This document shows positions 5,064 to 9,522 of a stretch of 64,000 nucleotides of DNA, in pieces. Positions within the stretch are counted from its first letter, which is position 1. Each line of letters opens with the position of its first letter. The position numbers and the translations under genes were made by a program. Source of the DNA: Leptolyngbya sp. NIES-3755. GTDB lineage: Bacteria; Cyanobacteriota; Cyanobacteriia; Leptolyngbyales; Leptolyngbyaceae. The stretch is taken from assembly GCA_001548435.1 (NCBI GenBank), contig AP017308.1, positions 2,489,030 to 2,553,029 of the forward strand, given 5' to 3'. The notes beneath the pieces were generated by a model, which did no database searches, was not told where the DNA came from, and worked only from the letters and a program-made list of their open reading frames with translations.

Positions 5064-5110
5064 TGGACAGATTTGTAATATATATGTAGTATAAAACTAG
5101 AGCATACTAC
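5064..5110 (+). promoter_or_regulatory. promoter with overlapping inverted repeat (copy 1)
   Basis: TGGACA at 5064-5069 and TAGTAT at 5087-5092 are 17 bases apart. GTAGTAT (5086-5092) is repeated in inverse as ATACTAC (5104-5110), so a dimeric regulator could sit on the -10 and start. The block TTGTAATA...ATGTAGTAT recurs at the promoter of copy 2 near 5874-5893. Confidence 0.5.
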
Positions 5111-5125
5111 AAGTAATACATCGAG

Positions 5126-5336: not shown

Positions 5337-5855
5337 ATGCAGGCAACCGAACCACATATATTACAGACCTCGATCGTCGTTTTTTCCAGAAACTACCTGC
5401 CGATCGGTCGCATCAACATCAAACGAGCAATCGTCCTGATTATCACCGGACAAGCTGAACCGCTCGATTTTGAAGATACTCGCCAGTGGGAAGTACGATC
5501 GCCCAACATCGTACTACAAGTGTCGGAACACATCCGTTTAACCGGATCAAATCCAGAACGCCATTGGAAAATCCCCGCAGTCAGCCGCCGAGAAATTCTC
5601 CGCCGTGACAATCACACCTGCCAGTACTGCGGCAGCACCAAGCATCTAACGATCGATCACGTGATTCCCCGTTCTAAAGGCGGAACTCACACCTGGGATA
5701 ACGTGGTGACGGCTTGCGCGACTTGTAACTCGAAAAAGAGCGATCGCTTTTTATCCGAACTCGGCATGAAGCTCAAAACCAAGCCAAAACCACCGATTCA
5801 TCCAGCGATCGCGTTCTCCGAACAGTTCTGGCAAGCCTCCGAAAAAAAGTTGTAG
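5337..5855 (+). CDS. HNH endonuclease
   Basis: The 172-residue protein has an N-terminal beta-rich part (about 1-70: VVFSRNYLPIGRINIKRA, a pattern common in cyanobacterial HNH proteins) and an HNH nuclease domain at about 95-145. The metal-binding cysteines are CQYCG and ACATCN, and the catalytic core is TIDHVIPRSKGG followed by WDNVVTAC. The enzyme should cut nucleic acid; the substrate is not known. AGGAGG at 5321-5326 supports the start. It sits directly ahead of the tRNA array, and a second HNH gene lies inside the array, so both may belong to the mobility or maintenance of that array. Confidence 0.88.
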   Translation: MQATEPHILQTSIVVFSRNYLPIGRINIKRAIVLIITGQAEPLDFEDTRQWEVRSPNIVLQVSEHIRLTGSNPERHWKIPAVSRREILRRDNHTCQYCGSTKHLTIDHVIPRSKGGTHTWDNVVTACATCNSKKSDRFLSELGMKLKTKPKPPIHPAIAFSEQFWQASEKKL

Positions 5856-5863
5856 TACACCCC

Positions 5864-5904
5864 TTGACAATCTTGTAATACGTTATGTAGTATTAATGTA
5901 ATAC
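5864..5904 (+). promoter_or_regulatory. promoter of the 53-codon ORF and tRNA array, with palindromes (copy 2)
   Basis: A perfect TTGACA at 5864-5869 is followed after 18 bases by TAGTAT at 5888-5893. The start region holds the palindrome GTATTA-ATG-TAATAC (5890-5904), and another TAATAC lies inside the spacer. The spacer and -10 (TTGTAATAC...TTATGTAGTAT) repeat the sequence of the promoter at 5064-5092, so the two are probably under one regulator. It is the only strong promoter I see ahead of the tRNA array. Confidence 0.65.
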
Positions 5905-5931: not shown

Positions 5932-6093
5932 ATGATTCTGTTTCTGAGACATCCGAAATCGGACTCCTGGAACTTTAGCTGGGATCGTCGAAGACAACAA
6001 ACCAGTGCTGAAATTCGATTAGCGCGGAAGCAATCTGAAGCAATTTCAAAAGTACAAAATGAAGGCTTTTTGAAACTGCGATCGATGCTTTAA
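5932..6093 (+). CDS. small basic protein, 53 residues, unknown
   Basis: ATG at 5932 has a good ribosome-binding site (GGAGG at 5921-5925). The peptide begins MILFLRHPKSD and is rich in R, K and Q (WDRRRQQTSAEIRLARKQ). No family is recognised. It is the first gene after the strong promoter at 5864-5893 and lies 89 bases ahead of the first tRNA, so it is probably cotranscribed with the array. Confidence 0.5.
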   Translation: MILFLRHPKSDSWNFSWDRRRQQTSAEIRLARKQSEAISKVQNEGFLKLRSML

Positions 6094-6182: not shown

Positions 6183-6258
6183 GAGGATGTAGCTCAGTCT
6201 GGTCTAGAGCGTCTGTTTGTCGAACAGAAAGTCGCGAGTTCAAATCTCGTCATCCTCG
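6183..6258 (+). tRNA. tRNA-Asp(GTC)
   Basis: Acceptor GAGGATG pairs with CATCCTC, the D-arm is GCTC/GAGC, and the anticodon arm TCTGT-TTGTCGA-ACAGA gives GTC. The discriminator is G. The next bases are CCT, so no CCA is encoded. First tRNA of the array. Confidence 0.93.
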
Positions 6259-6261
6259 CCT

Positions 6262-6333
6262 GTCCGGGTAGCCAAGTGGGAAGGCGGCAAACTGCAAATC
6301 TGCTCAACGGGGGTTCGATTCCCCTCCCGGACT
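6262..6333 (+). tRNA. tRNA-Cys(GCA)
   Basis: Acceptor GTCCGGG/CCCGGAC, D-arm GCC/GGC, anticodon loop CTGCAAA gives GCA. The anticodon stem GCAAA/TCTGC has one A-C mismatch. Discriminator T is usual for Cys. No CCA is encoded. It starts three bases after tRNA-Asp. Confidence 0.9.
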
Positions 6334-6339
6334 TGAGAA

Positions 6340-6413
6340 GAGGTGCGAGGTGTGGGGTGCGAGGTGCGAGGTTCTGGAAATTCCCTCACACCCCGCACCT
6401 CGCACCTCACACC
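6340..6413. repeat. heptamer repeat island (GAGGTGC units) forming a palindrome
   Basis: GAGGTGC, GAGGTGT and GGGGTGC units run in tandem on the left half and in inverse (GCACCTC, ACACCCC) on the right, around a short A/T centre. They can fold into a long hairpin. The same units occur at 57750-57869. This resembles the short tandemly repeated repetitive sequences of cyanobacterial intergenic DNA. It separates tRNA-Cys from tRNA-Glu. Confidence 0.75.
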
Positions 6414-6419
6414 TTCCTT

Positions 6420-6493
6420 GGTGCTGTAGGCAAATTGGTAAAGCCACAACTCTTTCAAAGTTGCGTTTGCGGGTTCAACTCCCGTCAGCACTG
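6420..6493 (+). tRNA. tRNA-Glu(TTC)
   Basis: Acceptor GGTGCTG/CAGCACT (first pair G-U), D-arm GGC/GCC, anticodon arm CAACT-CTTTCAA-AGTTG gives TTC. T-loop TTCAACT. Discriminator G is followed by an encoded CCA. Confidence 0.92.
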
Positions 6494-6499
6494 CCAAAT

Positions 6500-6584
6500 G
6501 GAGAGGTTGCTATTGGTAGAGCAAATCGTTTGCTAAACGATCGAGGTTTAATCACCTCTGTGGGTTCAACTCCCACTCTCTCCG
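6500..6584 (+). tRNA. tRNA-Ser(GCT)
   Basis: Acceptor GGAGAGG/TCTCTCC, anticodon arm ATCGT-TTGCTAA-ACGAT gives GCT. It has a proper long class II variable arm with GAGGT pairing ACCTC, as expected for Ser. Discriminator G; no CCA encoded. This contrasts with the short variable loops of the Leu tRNAs in the same array. Confidence 0.93.
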
Positions 6585-6599
6585 TCCAAACGTTTTTTG

Positions 6600-6672
6600 G
6601 GGAATGTAGCTGAGTTGGTTCTAGCGTCAGATTGAAGCTCTGAAGAGGCGGGTTCGATTCCTGCCATTCCCA
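6600..6672 (+). tRNA. tRNA-Phe(GAA)
   Basis: Acceptor GGGAATG/CATTCCC, D-arm GCT/AGC, anticodon arm TCAGA-TTGAAGC-TCTGA gives GAA. Discriminator A, followed by TCC rather than CCA. Confidence 0.93.
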
Positions 6673-6696
6673 TCCTGAACAATCAGGAACAAACAT

Positions 6697-6771
6697 TGCC
6701 CTATAGCTCAATTGTGGCAGAGCGCCCGACTGTTAATCGGGTGGTTGTAGGTTCGACTCCTACTGGGGCAG
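6697..6771 (+). tRNA. tRNA-Asn(GTT)
   Basis: Acceptor TGCCCTA/TGGGGCA (one U-G), D-arm GCTC/GAGC, anticodon arm CCCGA-CTGTTAA-TCGGG gives GTT. Discriminator G, followed by an encoded CCA. Confidence 0.93.
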
Positions 6772-6780
6772 CCAAATTAA

Positions 6781-6855
6781 TGCCGAGTGGACGACTTTGG
6801 AAAGTCGCTATCGCTCTGAACGATGGAGATGTTGGTTCAAATCCAACCTCGGCAA
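6781..6855 (+). tRNA. tRNA-Gln(CTG)
   Basis: Acceptor TGCCGAG/CTCGGCA starts with U1-A72, as is usual for Gln. The D-arm is GAC/GTC with a loop of about 11 bases, and the anticodon arm TATCG-CTCTGAA-CGATG gives CTG. Discriminator A plus an encoded CCA. Confidence 0.88.
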
Positions 6856-6864
6856 CCAAAACTT

Positions 6865-6935
6865 TGCCCTGTGGTGTAGCGGTAGCATCTCTCACTTTGA
6901 ATGAGAAGAGTCAGGTTCAAATCCTGGCAGGGCAA
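6865..6935 (+). tRNA. tRNA-Gln(TTG)
   Basis: Acceptor TGCCCTG/CAGGGCA, anticodon arm TCTCA-CTTTGAA-TGAGA gives TTG. Discriminator A, followed by TCG, so no CCA. A second Gln isoacceptor directly after Gln(CTG). The next 51 bases hold no foldable tRNA. Confidence 0.92.
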
Positions 6936-6986
6936 TCGGGGGGCGTGAACTGCTTTTGGGTCAGCAATTCTATCCTCCTGTCATTT

Positions 6987-7062
6987 ACTCCTGTAGCCCA
7001 ATTTGGTAGAGGCAGCTATCTCAAAAATAGTTGATGTGTGAGTTCGACTCTCACCAGGAGTA
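6987..7062 (+). tRNA. tRNA-Leu(CAA) with short variable loop
   Basis: Acceptor ACTCCTG/CAGGAGT, D-arm GCC/GGC, anticodon arm GCTAT-CTCAAAA-ATAGT gives CAA. Only six bases (TGATGT) separate the anticodon stem from the T-stem GTGAG/CTCAC, whereas bacterial Leu tRNAs normally carry a long class II arm. Discriminator A plus an encoded CCA. Confidence 0.85.
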
Positions 7063-7071
7063 CCACTCGAT

Positions 7072-7145
7072 CGGGGTATGGCGCAATTTGGTAGCGCGGC
7101 GGCTTTGGGAGCCGAAGGTTGTAAGTTCAAATCTTACTATCCCGA
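7072..7145 (+). tRNA. tRNA-Pro(TGG)
   Basis: Acceptor CGGGGTA/TATCCCG, D-arm GCGC/GCGC, loop TTTGGGA gives TGG. The anticodon stem GCGGC/GCCGA has an outer G-A mismatch. Discriminator A plus an encoded CCA. The C1-G72 start is usual for Pro. Confidence 0.9.
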
Positions 7146-7151
7146 CCATTT

Positions 7152-7225
7152 GCCCTTGTAGCAGAACTGGAATATGCACTGGTCTTAGGAACCGGGATTT
7201 GTGGGTTCGACTCCCACTAGGGGCA
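7152..7225 (+). tRNA. tRNA-Leu(TAG) with short variable loop
   Basis: Acceptor GCCCTTG/TAGGGGC with two wobble pairs, D-arm GCA/TGC, anticodon arm CTGGT-CTTAGGA-ACCGG gives TAG. The variable loop is five bases (GATTT), class I. Discriminator A; no CCA encoded. Confidence 0.85.
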
Positions 7226-7229
7226 CTGC

Positions 7230-7304
7230 ACTCCCGTGGCGAAAGTGGTAAACGCCTCCGTTTGAGGGACGGAGTTTATGCAGGTTCAAGTCCTGTCGGG
7301 AGTA
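7230..7304 (+). tRNA. tRNA-Leu(GAG) with short variable loop
   Basis: Acceptor ACTCCCG/CGGGAGT, D-arm GCG/CGC, anticodon arm TCCGT-TTGAGGG-ACGGA gives GAG. The variable loop is six bases (GTTTAT). Discriminator A plus an encoded CCA. Confidence 0.87.
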
Positions 7305-7310
7305 CCAAAT

Positions 7311-7385
7311 GCACCGAAGGCGGAAGTGGTCTACGCGCACGCCCGATAAGCGTGTTACTAGCAGGTTCGAGTCCTGCTCGGTGTA
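7311..7385 (+). tRNA. tRNA-Ile(GAT)
   Basis: Acceptor GCACCGA/TCGGTGT (first pair G-U), D-arm GCG/CGC, anticodon arm CACGC-CCGATAA-GCGTG gives GAT. T-arm GCAGG/CCTGC. Discriminator A plus an encoded CCA. Confidence 0.9.
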
Positions 7386-7398
7386 CCAGATTAACAAT

Positions 7399-7470
7399 GG
7401 GCGTTTGGCAGAACGGCTATGCACTTGACTTTTAATCAAGCTCACACAGGTTCGACCCCTGTAGCGCCCA
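7399..7470 (+). tRNA. tRNA-Lys(TTT)
   Basis: Acceptor GGGCGTT/AGCGCCC, D-arm GCA/TGC, anticodon arm CTTGA-CTTTTAA-TCAAG gives TTT. Discriminator A plus an encoded CCA. Confidence 0.92.
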
Positions 7471-7486
7471 CCAAAGATAAAACGAT

Positions 7487-7561
7487 GCCCCTGTGATGCA
7501 ATTGGATAGACATCGCTCGCTTAAAACGAGTGTCTTGCTGGTTCGAGTCCAGTCAGGGGTA
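7487..7561 (+). tRNA. tRNA-Leu(TAA) with short variable loop
   Basis: Acceptor GCCCCTG/CAGGGGT (first pair G-U), D-arm ATG/CAT, anticodon arm GCTCG-CTTAAAA-CGAGT gives TAA. The variable loop is five bases (GTCTT). Discriminator A; no CCA. It ends two bases before the next tRNA. Confidence 0.86.
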
Positions 7562-7562
7562 T

Positions 7563-7639
7563 AGCGGGGATGAAGCAACGGTTAAGGCTGAGCAGTCTCA
7601 TAAGCTGAAGTTCAGTAGGTTCGACTCCTGCCCCCGCGA
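7563..7639 (+). tRNA. tRNA-Met(CAT), initiator-like acceptor stem
   Basis: The anticodon loop CTCATAA gives CAT. The stem GCAGT/GCTGA is weak, with an outer G-A mismatch. Acceptor pairs are GCGGGG/CCCCGC, with A1 facing G72 unpaired, which recalls initiator tRNAs. The three G-C pairs of a bacterial initiator anticodon stem are absent. Discriminator A plus an encoded CCA. An Ile(CAT) identity after lysidine modification cannot be excluded. Confidence 0.7.
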
Positions 7640-7645
7640 CCAACT

Positions 7646-7718
7646 GCTGATGTAGCTCAATTGGCAGAGCGCCTACCTTGTAAGTAGCGGGTTGCAGGTT
7701 CAATTCCTGTCATCAGCC
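7646..7718 (+). tRNA. tRNA-Thr(TGT)
   Basis: Acceptor GCTGATG/CATCAGC, D-arm GCTC/GAGC, loop CTTGTAA gives TGT. Anticodon stem CCTAC/GTAGC has an outer C-C mismatch. The discriminator C is unusual for Thr. An encoded CCA follows at 7719-7721. Confidence 0.88.
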
Positions 7719-7724
7719 CCATTT

Positions 7725-7795
7725 GTGGATATGGTGTAACGGTAGCATGAGAGTCTTCCAAACTCTGGGTGCGAGTTCAAATCTCGCTGTCCATT
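7725..7795 (+). tRNA. tRNA-Gly(TCC)
   Basis: Acceptor GTGGATA/TGTCCAT (two wobble pairs), anticodon arm AGAGT-CTTCCAA-ACTCT gives TCC, T-arm GCGAG/CTCGC. Discriminator T plus CCA at 7796-7798. That CCA overlaps the ribosome-binding region (AAGGAG) of the PARG gene, so the two are packed without a gap. Confidence 0.9.
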
Positions 7796-7812
7796 CCAAG
7801 GAGAAAGTAACA

Positions 7813-8643
7813 ATGAACAGAGTCTCGATCGCACAAAATACTCTAGAAATTCTCGAAGCCGGACATTACACGGCTCCCAGTGGAACACAAGTGAACATTA
7901 CAGCAGAGATTCGAGATTGTGTCGATCGAACACTCTATTACGATCCCGAAACCCTCTCAAATATTCAGCAAGAAATTCTTTCCAGTCCTGCTCAATGCTC
8001 AACGTCTCTTGAAGTTAAGCGCGAAACAACTTTAGAAGGGATTCAACGACTTGCGGGAAAGTTTCAAAAGATTGGTGCTCTCAACTTTGCATCGGCAACA
8101 AATCCGGGTGGGGGCTTTCTCAATGGCGCACAAGCTCAAGAGGAAAGCTTAGCTCGAAGTTCTGCATTGTACAAAAGCTTATTAAAAGGTCGAGAGTACT
8201 ATGACTATCATCGGGCGAATCGATCGACATTTTATAGCGATCGCATGATTTATTCTCCAAACTGTCCTGTGTTCAAAGACGATAATGGCAACCTTTTAGA
8301 CCAGCCTTATTTTGTCGATTTCATTACTAGCCCCGCCCCCAATGCTGGAATGATTGCAAAAGATCGATCGAATGACGTAGACAAAATCGAGGAAACGTTG
8401 CGAGTTCGAGGTAGTAAAGTTCTAAGCTTAGCAGTCCATCAAAACTGTGATGCTTTGATTCTAGGCGCATGGGGATGTGGTGTGTTTAGAAATTCACCTG
8501 TGATGGTTGCTCAAATGTTTGCGGATTTGCTCAAGGGTGACTTTCAAGGAAGGTTTAGGTTTGTCTCTTTCTCAATCTATGACTCTAGTAAAAATCAGAG
8601 TGTCTTCTCTGCATTCAATCAACAATTTGAGAGTGTCGCCTAA
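7813..8643 (+). CDS. bacterial-type poly(ADP-ribose) glycohydrolase, macrodomain (TIGR02452/DUF2263 family)
   Basis: The 276-residue protein carries the PARG signature GGG-x7-QEE at residues 99-111 (NPGGGFLNGAQAQEES), with the two adjacent glutamates 110-111 as the catalytic acid/base in this family. Upstream is the domain in which ADP-ribose phosphates bind (ALNFASATNPGG). Downstream, LGAWGCGVFRNSP (about residues 218-230) is the second conserved loop of the microbial PARG fold. Family members remove ADP-ribose chains or units from targets. The start at 7813 has AAGGAG at 7798-7803; an upstream extension would run through tRNA-Gly and is not real. It lies in the tRNA array, same strand, 18 bases after tRNA-Gly, and tRNA-Arg(TCT) follows 17 bases after its stop, so it is part of the array transcript. 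The substrate is unknown. Confidence 0.9.
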   Translation: MNRVSIAQNTLEILEAGHYTAPSGTQVNITAEIRDCVDRTLYYDPETLSNIQQEILSSPAQCSTSLEVKRETTLEGIQRLAGKFQKIGALNFASATNPGGGFLNGAQAQEESLARSSALYKSLLKGREYYDYHRANRSTFYSDRMIYSPNCPVFKDDNGNLLDQPYFVDFITSPAPNAGMIAKDRSNDVDKIEETLRVRGSKVLSLAVHQNCDALILGAWGCGVFRNSPVMVAQMFADLLKGDFQGRFRFVSFSIYDSSKNQSVFSAFNQQFESVA

Positions 8644-8660
8644 TGGAAGGGTAGCAAATT

Positions 8661-8732
8661 GCCTCTATAGCTCAATGGATAGAGCAGCTTGCTTCTAACA
8701 AGCGGATCTGGGTTCAATTCCTGGTAGAGGCG
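8661..8732 (+). tRNA. tRNA-Arg(TCT)
   Basis: Acceptor GCCTCTA/TAGAGGC, D-arm GCTC/GAGC, anticodon arm GCTTG-CTTCTAA-CAAGC gives TCT. Discriminator G; no CCA. Its 3' half is overlapped on the other strand by the end of the HNH gene. Confidence 0.92.
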
Positions 8733-9267
8733 TTAGAGTTATTAATCCAGAGTGTATCTCTCGATGACAATTGGCGCAAACCAGAACGCATTTATCTAAC
8801 TCTTTCTGGATAGACTCAAATTTCGAGCTTCGATGGTTACTTACTTGAAAATCCTTCTCTTCAGGATTTAGATGATGAAATTCCAAGGCTCCTAAGCACT
8901 TGCTGTAGTCGCAGAGTTGACACTTTCCTCCTTTATACTCAACAGCTTTTCTTTTAAACTCCCTTTGCCTCTCACTAACTTGATCAATAGAACAAGTTTT
9001 GCAGTAGAAAGTGAGACTTCCGTTGCCTTTTTTATAAAACGCAGAAAGAGGTAGTACATGAGTGCATCTTGGACACTGCTTCTTTGTGACTTCAAGCCCG
9101 GTATCCTTTAGGCAGTAGATTGCTGCTGTTTTTGCAAGATTTCTTCTGTTGTTTGATCGAAATGGCGAACACTCTAAGCAGAATTTTCTGTTGGATAGAT
9201 TTCTGGTTTTTCCGTCAATTATTTTTCGATTTGGAAACGAGCTTTGACATTTCAAACAAGCTGGCAT
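8695..9267 (-). CDS. HNH endonuclease embedded in the tRNA array
   Basis: The 190-residue protein has several zinc-binding cysteine pairs in the first half (CLKC, CLEC, CPRC, CKTC) and a C-terminal HNH nuclease domain: CQLC, LEFHHLNPEEKDF, then CVLVCANCHREIH. It runs against all the tRNAs. The last dozen or so residues (PLPGIEPRSAC) are encoded by the antisense of tRNA-Arg(TCT), and the stop lies inside the anticodon arm region. Its start at 9267 touches the degenerate tRNA at 9270-9359. Similar HNH proteins are often free-standing homing-type nucleases. Its position inside an array, bounded by two Arg(TCT)-type sequences, suggests invasion of a tRNA locus. Confidence 0.82.
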   Translation of the reverse strand: MPACLKCQSSFPNRKIIDGKTRNLSNRKFCLECSPFRSNNRRNLAKTAAIYCLKDTGLEVTKKQCPRCTHVLPLSAFYKKGNGSLTFYCKTCSIDQVSERQREFKRKAVEYKGGKCQLCDYSKCLGALEFHHLNPEEKDFQVSNHRSSKFESIQKELDKCVLVCANCHREIHSGLITLTPLPGIEPRSAC

Positions 9268-9269
9268 AA

Positions 9270-9359
9270 GAGAGTGATCGAATTGATAGTTTTAATGTAC
9301 TAAATATTAACATCAATCTTCTAAATCGATCTGTGTAGGTTCGAGTCCTACCACTCTTG
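9270..9359 (+). pseudogene. degenerate tRNA-Arg(TCT)-like gene with enlarged D-arm
   Basis: The 3' half is normal: anticodon loop CTTCTAA (TCT), T-arm GTAGG-TTCGAGT-CCTAC and acceptor strand CACTCTT, which pairs with GAGAGTG at 9270-9276. The 5' half keeps only ATTGATAG of the D-arm and then has about 20 extra A/T-rich bases (TTTTAATGTACTAAATATTA) before the anticodon stem, making it 90 bases long. The anticodon stem TCAAT/ATCGA has a mismatch. It is probably not a working tRNA. The inserted A/T-rich part lies upstream of the HNH start on the minus strand and may be its promoter. Confidence 0.6.
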
Positions 9360-9368
9360 CCGAAGTAT

Positions 9369-9441
9369 AGGAGTGTAGCTCAATTGGAAGAGTACCAGGT
9401 TTCGACCCTGGAAGTTGTAGGTTCGCGTCCTATCACTCCTG
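9369..9441 (+). tRNA. tRNA-Arg(TCG)
   Basis: Acceptor AGGAGTG/CACTCCT, D-arm GCTC/GAGT, anticodon arm CCAGG-TTTCGAC-CCTGG gives TCG. T-loop TTCGCGT. Discriminator G; no CCA. Confidence 0.9.
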
Positions 9442-9446
9442 CTCAT

Positions 9447-9520
9447 GGGTTCGTAGCTCTAATTGGGAGAGCGCTTGTCTTGCACACAAGAGGTTGCGGG
9501 TTCAAATCCCGCCGAATCCA
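9447..9520 (+). tRNA. tRNA-Ala(TGC)
   Basis: Acceptor GGGTTCG/CGAATCC with a wobble at G3-U70, which is the Ala identity element. D-arm GCTC/GAGC, anticodon arm CTTGT-CTTGCAC-ACAAG gives TGC. Discriminator A; no CCA. Confidence 0.93.
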
Positions 9521-9522
9521 CT

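Follow-up and report, generated by a model that had tools for sequence, protein, structure and literature searches.

Leucine tRNAs with short variable loops in a cyanobacterial tRNA array are probable substrates of the host leucyl-tRNA synthetase

We analyzed a 64,000-nucleotide stretch of the Leptolyngbya sp. NIES-3755 genome (contig AP017308.1, positions 2,489,030 to 2,553,029; hereafter the window) that contains a tRNA array with four leucine-anticodon genes (CAA, TAG, GAG and TAA). Housekeeping bacterial tRNALeu is a class II tRNA. The four array genes are class I-shaped tRNALeu, not class II tRNAs. From sequence comparison and by analogy with systems studied elsewhere, we consider it probable that they are genuine tRNALeu charged by leucyl-tRNA synthetase (LeuRS), that they belong to an inducible array of the TrcR-regulated type, and that they have shed an arm that LeuRS does not require.

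Structure of the array tRNALeu genes

All four genes as placed by ARAGORN have variable loops of 5–6 nucleotides (nt), as the first-pass annotation of this DNA had reported. The structure scoring proposed there as a check independently fitted each gene to the complete model: Infernal scores were 53.7, 53.6, 48.5 and 43.0 bits for CAA, TAG, GAG and TAA, respectively, against a gathering score of 29, and all four span positions 1–71 of the 71-position tRNA model. None has the long (class II) variable arm expected of bacterial tRNALeu. An overlooked long arm was ruled out by ARAGORN, Infernal and loop counts, because the anticodon stem and the T stem are separated by only 5–6 nt. The T stem has 5 base pairs (bp) in all four, and the 8/4 or 9/3 acceptor/T-stem geometry of allo-tRNA was absent from them; ARAGORN adds an eighth acceptor pair in TAA alone, joining base −1 to A73.

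The tRNASer(GCT) of the same array retains a long arm of 18 nt, again as annotated. It also matches tRNA-Sec in Rfam (47.6 bits, against a gathering score of 47), a hit that we read as reflecting its class II shape. Chromosomal tRNALeu genes called by ARAGORN in the same genome (TAG, CAA, GAG and CAG) have 12–15 nt arms with stems. A chromosomal tRNALeu(UAA), probably split by an intron, was not among these calls; a weak 123-nt match at C1:3769140-3769262 may be it.

Variable loops across cyanobacterial arrays

For comparison with the array tRNAs of other cyanobacteria, 388 genomes of the class were scanned and 40 loci (L031-L070) from 34 genomes were taken from the best matches, not at random. 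These loci hold 933 tRNAs, 144 of them with leucine anticodons (31 CAA, 32 TAG, 21 CAG, 26 GAG and 34 TAA), distributed over 37 of the 40 loci. Variable loops of 5–6 nt were found in 143 of the 144; the one that departs from this, a GAG gene in L054, looks disrupted. All 60 tRNASer have long arms (12–21 nt), and 16 of 19 tyrosine-anticodon tRNAs have arms of 12–14 nt; the remaining three, with 5 nt, are copies of a constant-body tRNA with a variable anticodon (see below). The numbering script dropped 31 of the 933 array tRNAs (15 Ser-TGA, 2 Leu). The lengths of distinct genome-array tRNALeu loops peak at 5–6 nt (328/351). The view that four short loops out of four are unlikely to be an accident, put forward in the first-pass annotation, is therefore right and extends well past this array.

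Leucine identity elements and charging

In Escherichia coli, A73 is crucial for leucine identity, A15-U48, G18G19 and A20a are essential, and the anticodon and long arm are not; tRNALeu variants from which the anticodon arm and the variable arm have both been removed are still active (PMC9976931). We counted these elements in 126 distinct numbered short tRNALeu of the 40 loci, 28 distinct sequences having been dropped; 'short' in this count, and in the wider-loci and nearest-neighbor counts below, means ≤9 nt. A73 and A15-U48 are each present in 124/126, G18G19 in 125/126 and A20a in 116/126. The full four-element set occurs in 113 of the 126 short tRNALeu versus none of the 558 other class I array tRNAs in these loci. 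C2-G71 is present in 122/126 and G3-U70 in 0/126. In the window, CAA, TAG and GAG carry A73, C2-G71, A15-U48, G18G19, A20a and U8-A14, and TAA carries A73, C2-G71, A15-U48, G18G19 and U8-A14.

One LeuRS above the family cut-off was found in the genome (C1:2113424-2115970, 1177 bits), and a second, array-specific LeuRS was rejected on this ground. We propose that this single bacterial LeuRS would charge the short tRNALeu with leucine, as shown for arm-less tRNALeu in E. coli, because the features it would read, A73 and the D-loop/hinge set, are conserved, and the arm and anticodon would not be read.

The first acceptor pair of the short tRNALeu in L031-L070 has U72 in 115/126, mostly as G1-U72 or A1-U72. 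The four chromosomal tRNALeu have G1-C72, as does the window array TAG.

The array element and its predicted regulation

The array comprises 21 tRNA genes on the + strand between 6183 and 9521 (ARAGORN; Table 1), and the segment that holds the four tRNALeu genes (6987-7561) also includes tRNAPro, tRNAIle and tRNALys. Two features of L-arrays were found: scattered chromosomal tRNA genes exist elsewhere in the genome beside the cluster, and an HNH endonuclease gene lies upstream of it. HNH relatives were detected by tblastn in 33 of the 40 cyanobacterial array loci, and HNH genes lie directly upstream of the array on plasmids of Nostoc (two) and Tolypothrix (one).

The predicted array promoter contains a TrcR-like box, TGTAGTAT, at 5886-5893 (box sequence from PMC10272220). 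Among 34 array loci with ≥10 tRNAs, 30 have the same box in the 450 nt that precede the first tRNA; as a control, 2000 windows of 450 nt were drawn at random from these loci, and 155 contained it. In Anabaena sp. PCC 7120 this box overlaps the −10 element TAGTAT of the trn promoter, and the trn operon is repressed by TrcR and induced by translation inhibitors (PMC10272220); the product of the adjoining gene, all8564, is a homing endonuclease of the HNH type (PMC9938897). We infer that the window array is under the same TrcR-type regulation. The four tRNALeu genes would be part of a horizontally spread, HNH-associated array ('L-array'). Given the TrcR-like box in its promoter and by analogy with Anabaena 7120, this array is probably kept off during normal growth and switched on under translational stress. 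The short tRNALeu would then decode leucine codons when housekeeping class II tRNALeu is damaged or scarce.

Table 1. Features of the window array, and variant tRNAs of other array loci, by position or locus.
Feature	Position or locus	Strand	Detail	Source
tRNA-Leu(CAA)	6987..7065	+	class I; variable loop TGATGT, 6 nt	ARAGORN, Infernal
tRNA-Leu(TAG)	7152..7226	+	class I; variable loop GATTT, 5 nt	ARAGORN, Infernal
tRNA-Leu(GAG)	7230..7307	+	class I; variable loop GTTTAT, 6 nt	ARAGORN, Infernal
tRNA-Leu(TAA)	7486..7562	+	class I; variable loop GTCTT, 5 nt	ARAGORN, Infernal
tRNA-Ser(GCT)	6499..6588	+	long variable arm retained, 18 nt	ARAGORN
Main tRNA array	6183..7798	+	18 genes, Asp(GTC) to Gly(TCC)	ARAGORN, Rfam
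Array tail	8660..9521	+	tRNA-Arg(TCT), tRNA-Arg(TCG), tRNA-Ala(TGC)	ARAGORN
HNH endonuclease gene	5337..5855	+	172 aa; PF14279 1.9e-17, PF01844 2.5e-17	Pfam
TrcR-box-like pair upstream of HNH gene	5085..5111		TGTAGTAT 5085-5092; inverted copy ATACTACA 5104-5111	exact match scan
Predicted array promoter	5864..5893	+	TTGACA 5864-5869, 18-nt spacer, TAGTAT 5888-5893	sequence
UAA arm	L192		TCTATTTTAGATT, 4-bp stem	
UAA arm	L262, L153, L187		TCTATTTTGATT	
UAA arm	L205		TTTTTATTTTT	
UAA arm	L247		TTTCTTTGTT	
UAA arm	L237		TTTAATTTT	
UAA arm	L226		TTTTTTTT	
UAA arm	L163		6 nt	
Constant-body tRNA CTA	L035, L054, L177, L209, L211, L213, L227, L240, L248			
Constant-body tRNA CAA	L042, L044, L214, L233, L256			
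Constant-body tRNA GTA	L057, L064, L066, L178, L193			
Constant-body tRNA CTT	L166, L251			
Constant-body tRNA CAT	L047			
Constant-body tRNA GCA	L036			

Two further genes lie within or beside the array. A microbial PARG-type gene (7813-8643; PF10021, 8.9e-53) sits inside it, with relatives of 57–59% identity in array loci of Symploca, Microcoleus, Lyngbya and Hormoscilla (L205, L153, L262 and L226) and in none of L031-L070; ADP-ribose removal is possibly linked to array tRNAs. An open reading frame of 53 residues (5932-6093) lies after the predicted array promoter and ahead of the first tRNA. It is 68–83% identical in L039, L034, L033 and L031, from genomes of the same genus, and was present in no other locus searched.

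Constraint and stepwise loss of the arm

When 20 stem pairs were scored in each of the 126 short tRNALeu, 2470 of 2520 cells held standard pairs. In shuffles, a control in which shared ancestry remains, the mean fraction of standard pairs was 0.763 and the highest 0.781; several stem pairs change on both sides.

Array tRNALeu(UAA) genes from records of Microcoleus, Lyngbya, Symploca, Hydrocoleum, Hormoscilla and related organisms form a series in which a 13-nt arm with a stem is followed by arms of 12, 11, 10, 9, 8 and 6 nt (Table 1). The 12 best short/long pairs (9, 8 or 6 nt versus 10–13 nt) are 94–97% identical over the compared positions; one of the 12 is a GAG pair, with 9 versus 11 nt. 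This shows that the arm was lost stepwise in at least one lineage. A 3-bp stem is possible in 4 of 16 genome-array tRNALeu loops of ≥8 nt, and in 113 of 124 tRNASer and 41 of 62 tRNATyr variable loops.

Tyrosyl-tRNA synthetase is assumed to need the variable arm in a manner similar to seryl-tRNA synthetase (SerRS). The dependence of SerRS on the long arm has been described (PMC7609411). We suggest that the arm would have been lost by decay within arrays, a loss tolerated for tRNALeu and not for tRNASer and tRNATyr. Arm loss in leucine but not in serine or tyrosine tRNAs fits this scheme, as the arm is required by SerRS and dispensable for E. coli LeuRS.

Occurrence in other phyla and in viruses

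A pattern combining a Leu-type D arm with a Leu-type anticodon (pattern 1) was run on genome contigs and on IMG/VR. The genome matches listed cover at least 116 stretches, from which prevalence is not derivable, and all non-viral pattern-1 counts in this section are among the matches listed. Phyla were assigned from record titles, and several records are metagenome-assembled genomes. Locus sizes range from 2 to 30 tRNAs outside cyanobacteria and from 1 to 29 in viruses, not all of the loci being arrays; tRNAs selected by the pattern were counted apart.

Pattern loci were found in Actinomycetota, Bacteroidota, Acidobacteriota, Planctomycetota, Chloroflexota, Elusimicrobiota, Myxococcota, Bdellovibrionota and Verrucomicrobiota, and viral contigs also hold short tRNALeu. 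Short tRNALeu were present in 27 of 28 non-cyanobacterial loci. Unselected tRNALeu were short in 26/28 cases in these 28 loci, in 25/29 cases in 30 viral loci and in 106/113 cases in 88 cyanobacterial loci. The 88 loci overlap the 40 described above, partly through the same genomes; 85 of the 113 tRNALeu are absent from the 40 loci, and 78 of these 85 are short. Long arms persist in tRNASer (16/16 non-cyanobacterial, 10/11 viral and 81/81 cyanobacterial) and in tRNATyr (12/12, 8/8 and 38/40, respectively). The full identity set was present in 24/26 non-cyanobacterial, 24/25 viral and 95/106 cyanobacterial unselected short tRNALeu. Independently of the pattern, a plasmid array of Mycolicibacterium was found to contain short tRNALeu(CAG) and tRNALeu(TAA). 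A second pattern, aimed at more class I UAA tRNAs, returned mostly class II tRNAs, including 45 of the 49 tRNALeu in its viral loci.

Weighing the interpretation

Several observations weigh against the interpretation that the short tRNALeu are LeuRS substrates with a dispensable arm. The D loop of the window TAA has one extra base and its A at 20b, not 20a, and the identity set itself is that of E. coli, borrowed here for a cyanobacterial LeuRS. The full set also occurs in a few tRNAs of other isotypes in the wider loci (7/211, 4/240 and 2/982, among the matches listed). Some arrays contain class II tRNALeu (GAG and TAA in L252, AAG in L169); the Mycolicibacterium plasmid array retains a long CAA, and class II forms account for 2/2 tRNALeu in the stretch of pMPPla107 that was read and 1/1 in phage Atuin. 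The short form is thus broadly distributed among tRNA clusters without being universal; that all tRNA arrays have it was rejected on pMPPla107, Atuin and the viral pattern-2 loci. The decay series was seen for UAA, plus the single GAG pair.

The bodies of the short tRNALeu give a divided picture. Among 394, the nearest body was a class II tRNALeu for 162 and another isotype for 194, with 38 ties, the pool of other isotypes being 33 times larger than that of class II tRNALeu (2139 versus 64); CAA and TAG make up most of those nearest to another isotype. The corresponding counts (Leu, ties, other) were 128, 40 and 226 with pattern-selected class II tRNALeu left out, 107, 58 and 229 for the 3' half only, and 89, 47 and 258 with both restrictions. 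Against the housekeeping tRNAs of this genome, the nearest was Leu for 60 of 126, Thr for 37 and Arg for 14. By nearest neighbor, the origin of the short tRNALeu outside the UAA lineage is equivocal.

These nearest-neighbor counts, together with true oddities of the arrays such as a single tRNA body that occurs with any of six anticodons, are what could be said for class I bodies that are charged by another synthetase or left uncharged, so that leucine codons are misread or the tRNAs act as decoys. The first-pass annotation leaned this way, proposing another amino acid, poor charging or nuclease decoys. We consider this quite improbable, given the presence of all four LeuRS elements in 113/126 short tRNALeu versus 0/558 others, the absence of G3-U70 and the conserved stems. 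Its judgment that an accident is unlikely stands, and its suggestions about charging and decoys are not favored; it had allowed that they would fall if tRNAs of the same type were known to be leucylated normally, and the active E. coli tRNALeu without anticodon and variable arms come close to this (PMC9976931). That the genes are pseudogenes of a decaying array is more improbable still. The window array is indeed interrupted by other genes and is without members present in its relatives, such as Trp and Tyr, but the near-complete stem pairing and the sharp loop-length peak make a pseudogene reading unlikely, and the promoter box is conserved.

Nucleases may matter in the opposite sense to a decoy, the short tRNALeu being cleavage-resistant replacements and not bait. 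Defense or toxin nucleases would cut or grip the arm, selection would have removed it, and the array would supply uncleavable, chargeable tRNALeu; tRNASer could not follow because SerRS needs the arm (PMC7609411), and a like need is assumed for tRNATyr. Septu and retron-Eco7 cut tRNATyr in its variable loop, and the tRNATyr of T5 escapes cleavage because this loop differs (PMC13096335), variable loops have been identified as real nuclease targets in other work also (PMC11555353), and anticodon-loop changes in phage tRNAs are predicted to evade tRNases (PMC10264068). Short tRNALeu occur in arrays and viral contigs, and the C33 of some array tRNAs with G34 might represent another such change. 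However, the named variable-loop nucleases act on tRNATyr, whose arm persists in arrays, and among the papers listed in the literature search there was none on a bacterial nuclease that singles out the arm of tRNALeu. In Anabaena, what induces the array is antibiotics that block translation (PMC10272220). Passive decay accounts for these data as well, and the non-array comparison covers four chromosomal tRNALeu of one genome. We hold nuclease escape to be possible but doubtful.

Escape from SerRS, in which a mobile tRNA of many hosts sheds its arm so that no host SerRS can mis-serylate it, is in our view unlikely. Leucine and serine identities are interconvertible (PMC9976931), SerRS uses the long arm (PMC7609411), and C2-G71, which in E. 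coli tRNALeu acts as an antideterminant against SerRS, is present in nearly all short tRNALeu. Yet A73 and C2-G71 could already shield an armed tRNALeu, and class II tRNALeu are mobile too, as in the viral pattern-2 loci. Both ideas could be combined: in mobile arrays and phages of many phyla, the arm, as nuclease target and SerRS handle, might have been selectively deleted from tRNALeu, the only class II family with a synthetase that disregards it, to leave a broad-host, attack-resistant and chargeable stress backup. We offer this tentatively. Selection for arm loss in mobile arrays is plausible, though unproven.

The arrays look like a natural experiment in the dispensability of an arm that is regarded as an invariant hallmark of bacterial tRNALeu. 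Its loss in tRNALeu and retention in tRNASer and tRNATyr match the known behavior of LeuRS and SerRS, and the array tRNALeu are ready substrates for asking what the arm does. They also bear on whether mobile tRNAs dodge tRNA-cutting defenses and stay chargeable in many hosts. For annotation, a missing arm in an array tRNA does not prove a pseudogene.

Relation to known systems

The trn operon of Anabaena sp. PCC 7120 (delta plasmid) is likewise a long tRNA cluster beside a housekeeping set, with a promoter −10 element that overlaps TGTAGTAT (PMC10272220) and an adjacent HNH gene (PMC9938897). It differs in having 26 genes on a megaplasmid, against 21 here on a 6.2-Mb contig, and the PARG-type gene inside the array is a further difference. 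In a tRNA cluster of Mycobacterium mucogenicum/phocaicum, which also contains an HNH gene, one tRNALeu(TAG) is reported to have a short variable loop and its housekeeping copy the normal, larger one; the available text gives this one sentence, on one isoacceptor, and does not treat identity elements, charging or generality (PMC6582537). That was the only prior mention in the literature searched, although the cyanobacterial case may have been described earlier. Variable-arm differences are noted in general for a Mycobacterium avium tRNA array unit, but the example is tRNATyr, and leucine is unmentioned in the main text as available (PMC12803027); the accessible parts of another Mycobacterium array paper do not mention short Leu arms (PMC5966550).

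For arm-less E. coli tRNALeu, A73 and tertiary contacts between the D and T loops suffice for leucylation (PMC9976931). Those molecules are laboratory deletions, whereas the array genes are natural, complete class I cloverleaves. We know of no link between animal mitochondrial tRNALeu and mobile arrays. The mitochondrial tRNAs also have a short variable loop and are leucylated, with A73 and A14 mattering (PMC9976931), but they belong to an organelle with its own LeuRS.

Other unusual tRNAs of the arrays

A tRNA with a near-constant body ('tacatactcgcctaatgg...' in most) carries six anticodons (amber CUA, CAA, GUA, CUU, CAU and GCA) across 23 array loci (Table 1), at least four of which duplicate a record that also appears under another locus (L214/L042, L233/L044, L178/L064 and L193/L057). 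The copies are ≥90% identical to that of L042 over the compared positions; they adjoin tRNATrp in 20/23 loci and lie between Met and Glu in 3/23. By its sequence, this appears to be an anticodon wild-card tRNA.

The array tRNAIle(GAT), found at 7311-7388 of the window and in 18 array loci, is strongly conserved, with 9 distinct numbered sequences among 18. It has C33 in 17/18, A15-A48, mostly G1-U72 and a Leu-like D arm, and U8-A14 is absent. Within L031-L070, C replaces the expected U33 in Leu-GAG (23/25), Ile-GAT (17/18) and Pro-GGG (10/10), and in 9/20 Gly-GCC, one more of which has A33. All four of these anticodons start with G; the window Leu-GAG retains U33.

Two further chromosomal tRNA pairs were seen (G000:C1:533717-533963 and 3530125-3530375; L093 and L108). 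One consists of Phe beside a tRNA with a short, unassigned anticodon loop, and the other of Ala and Glu with similar acceptor stems.
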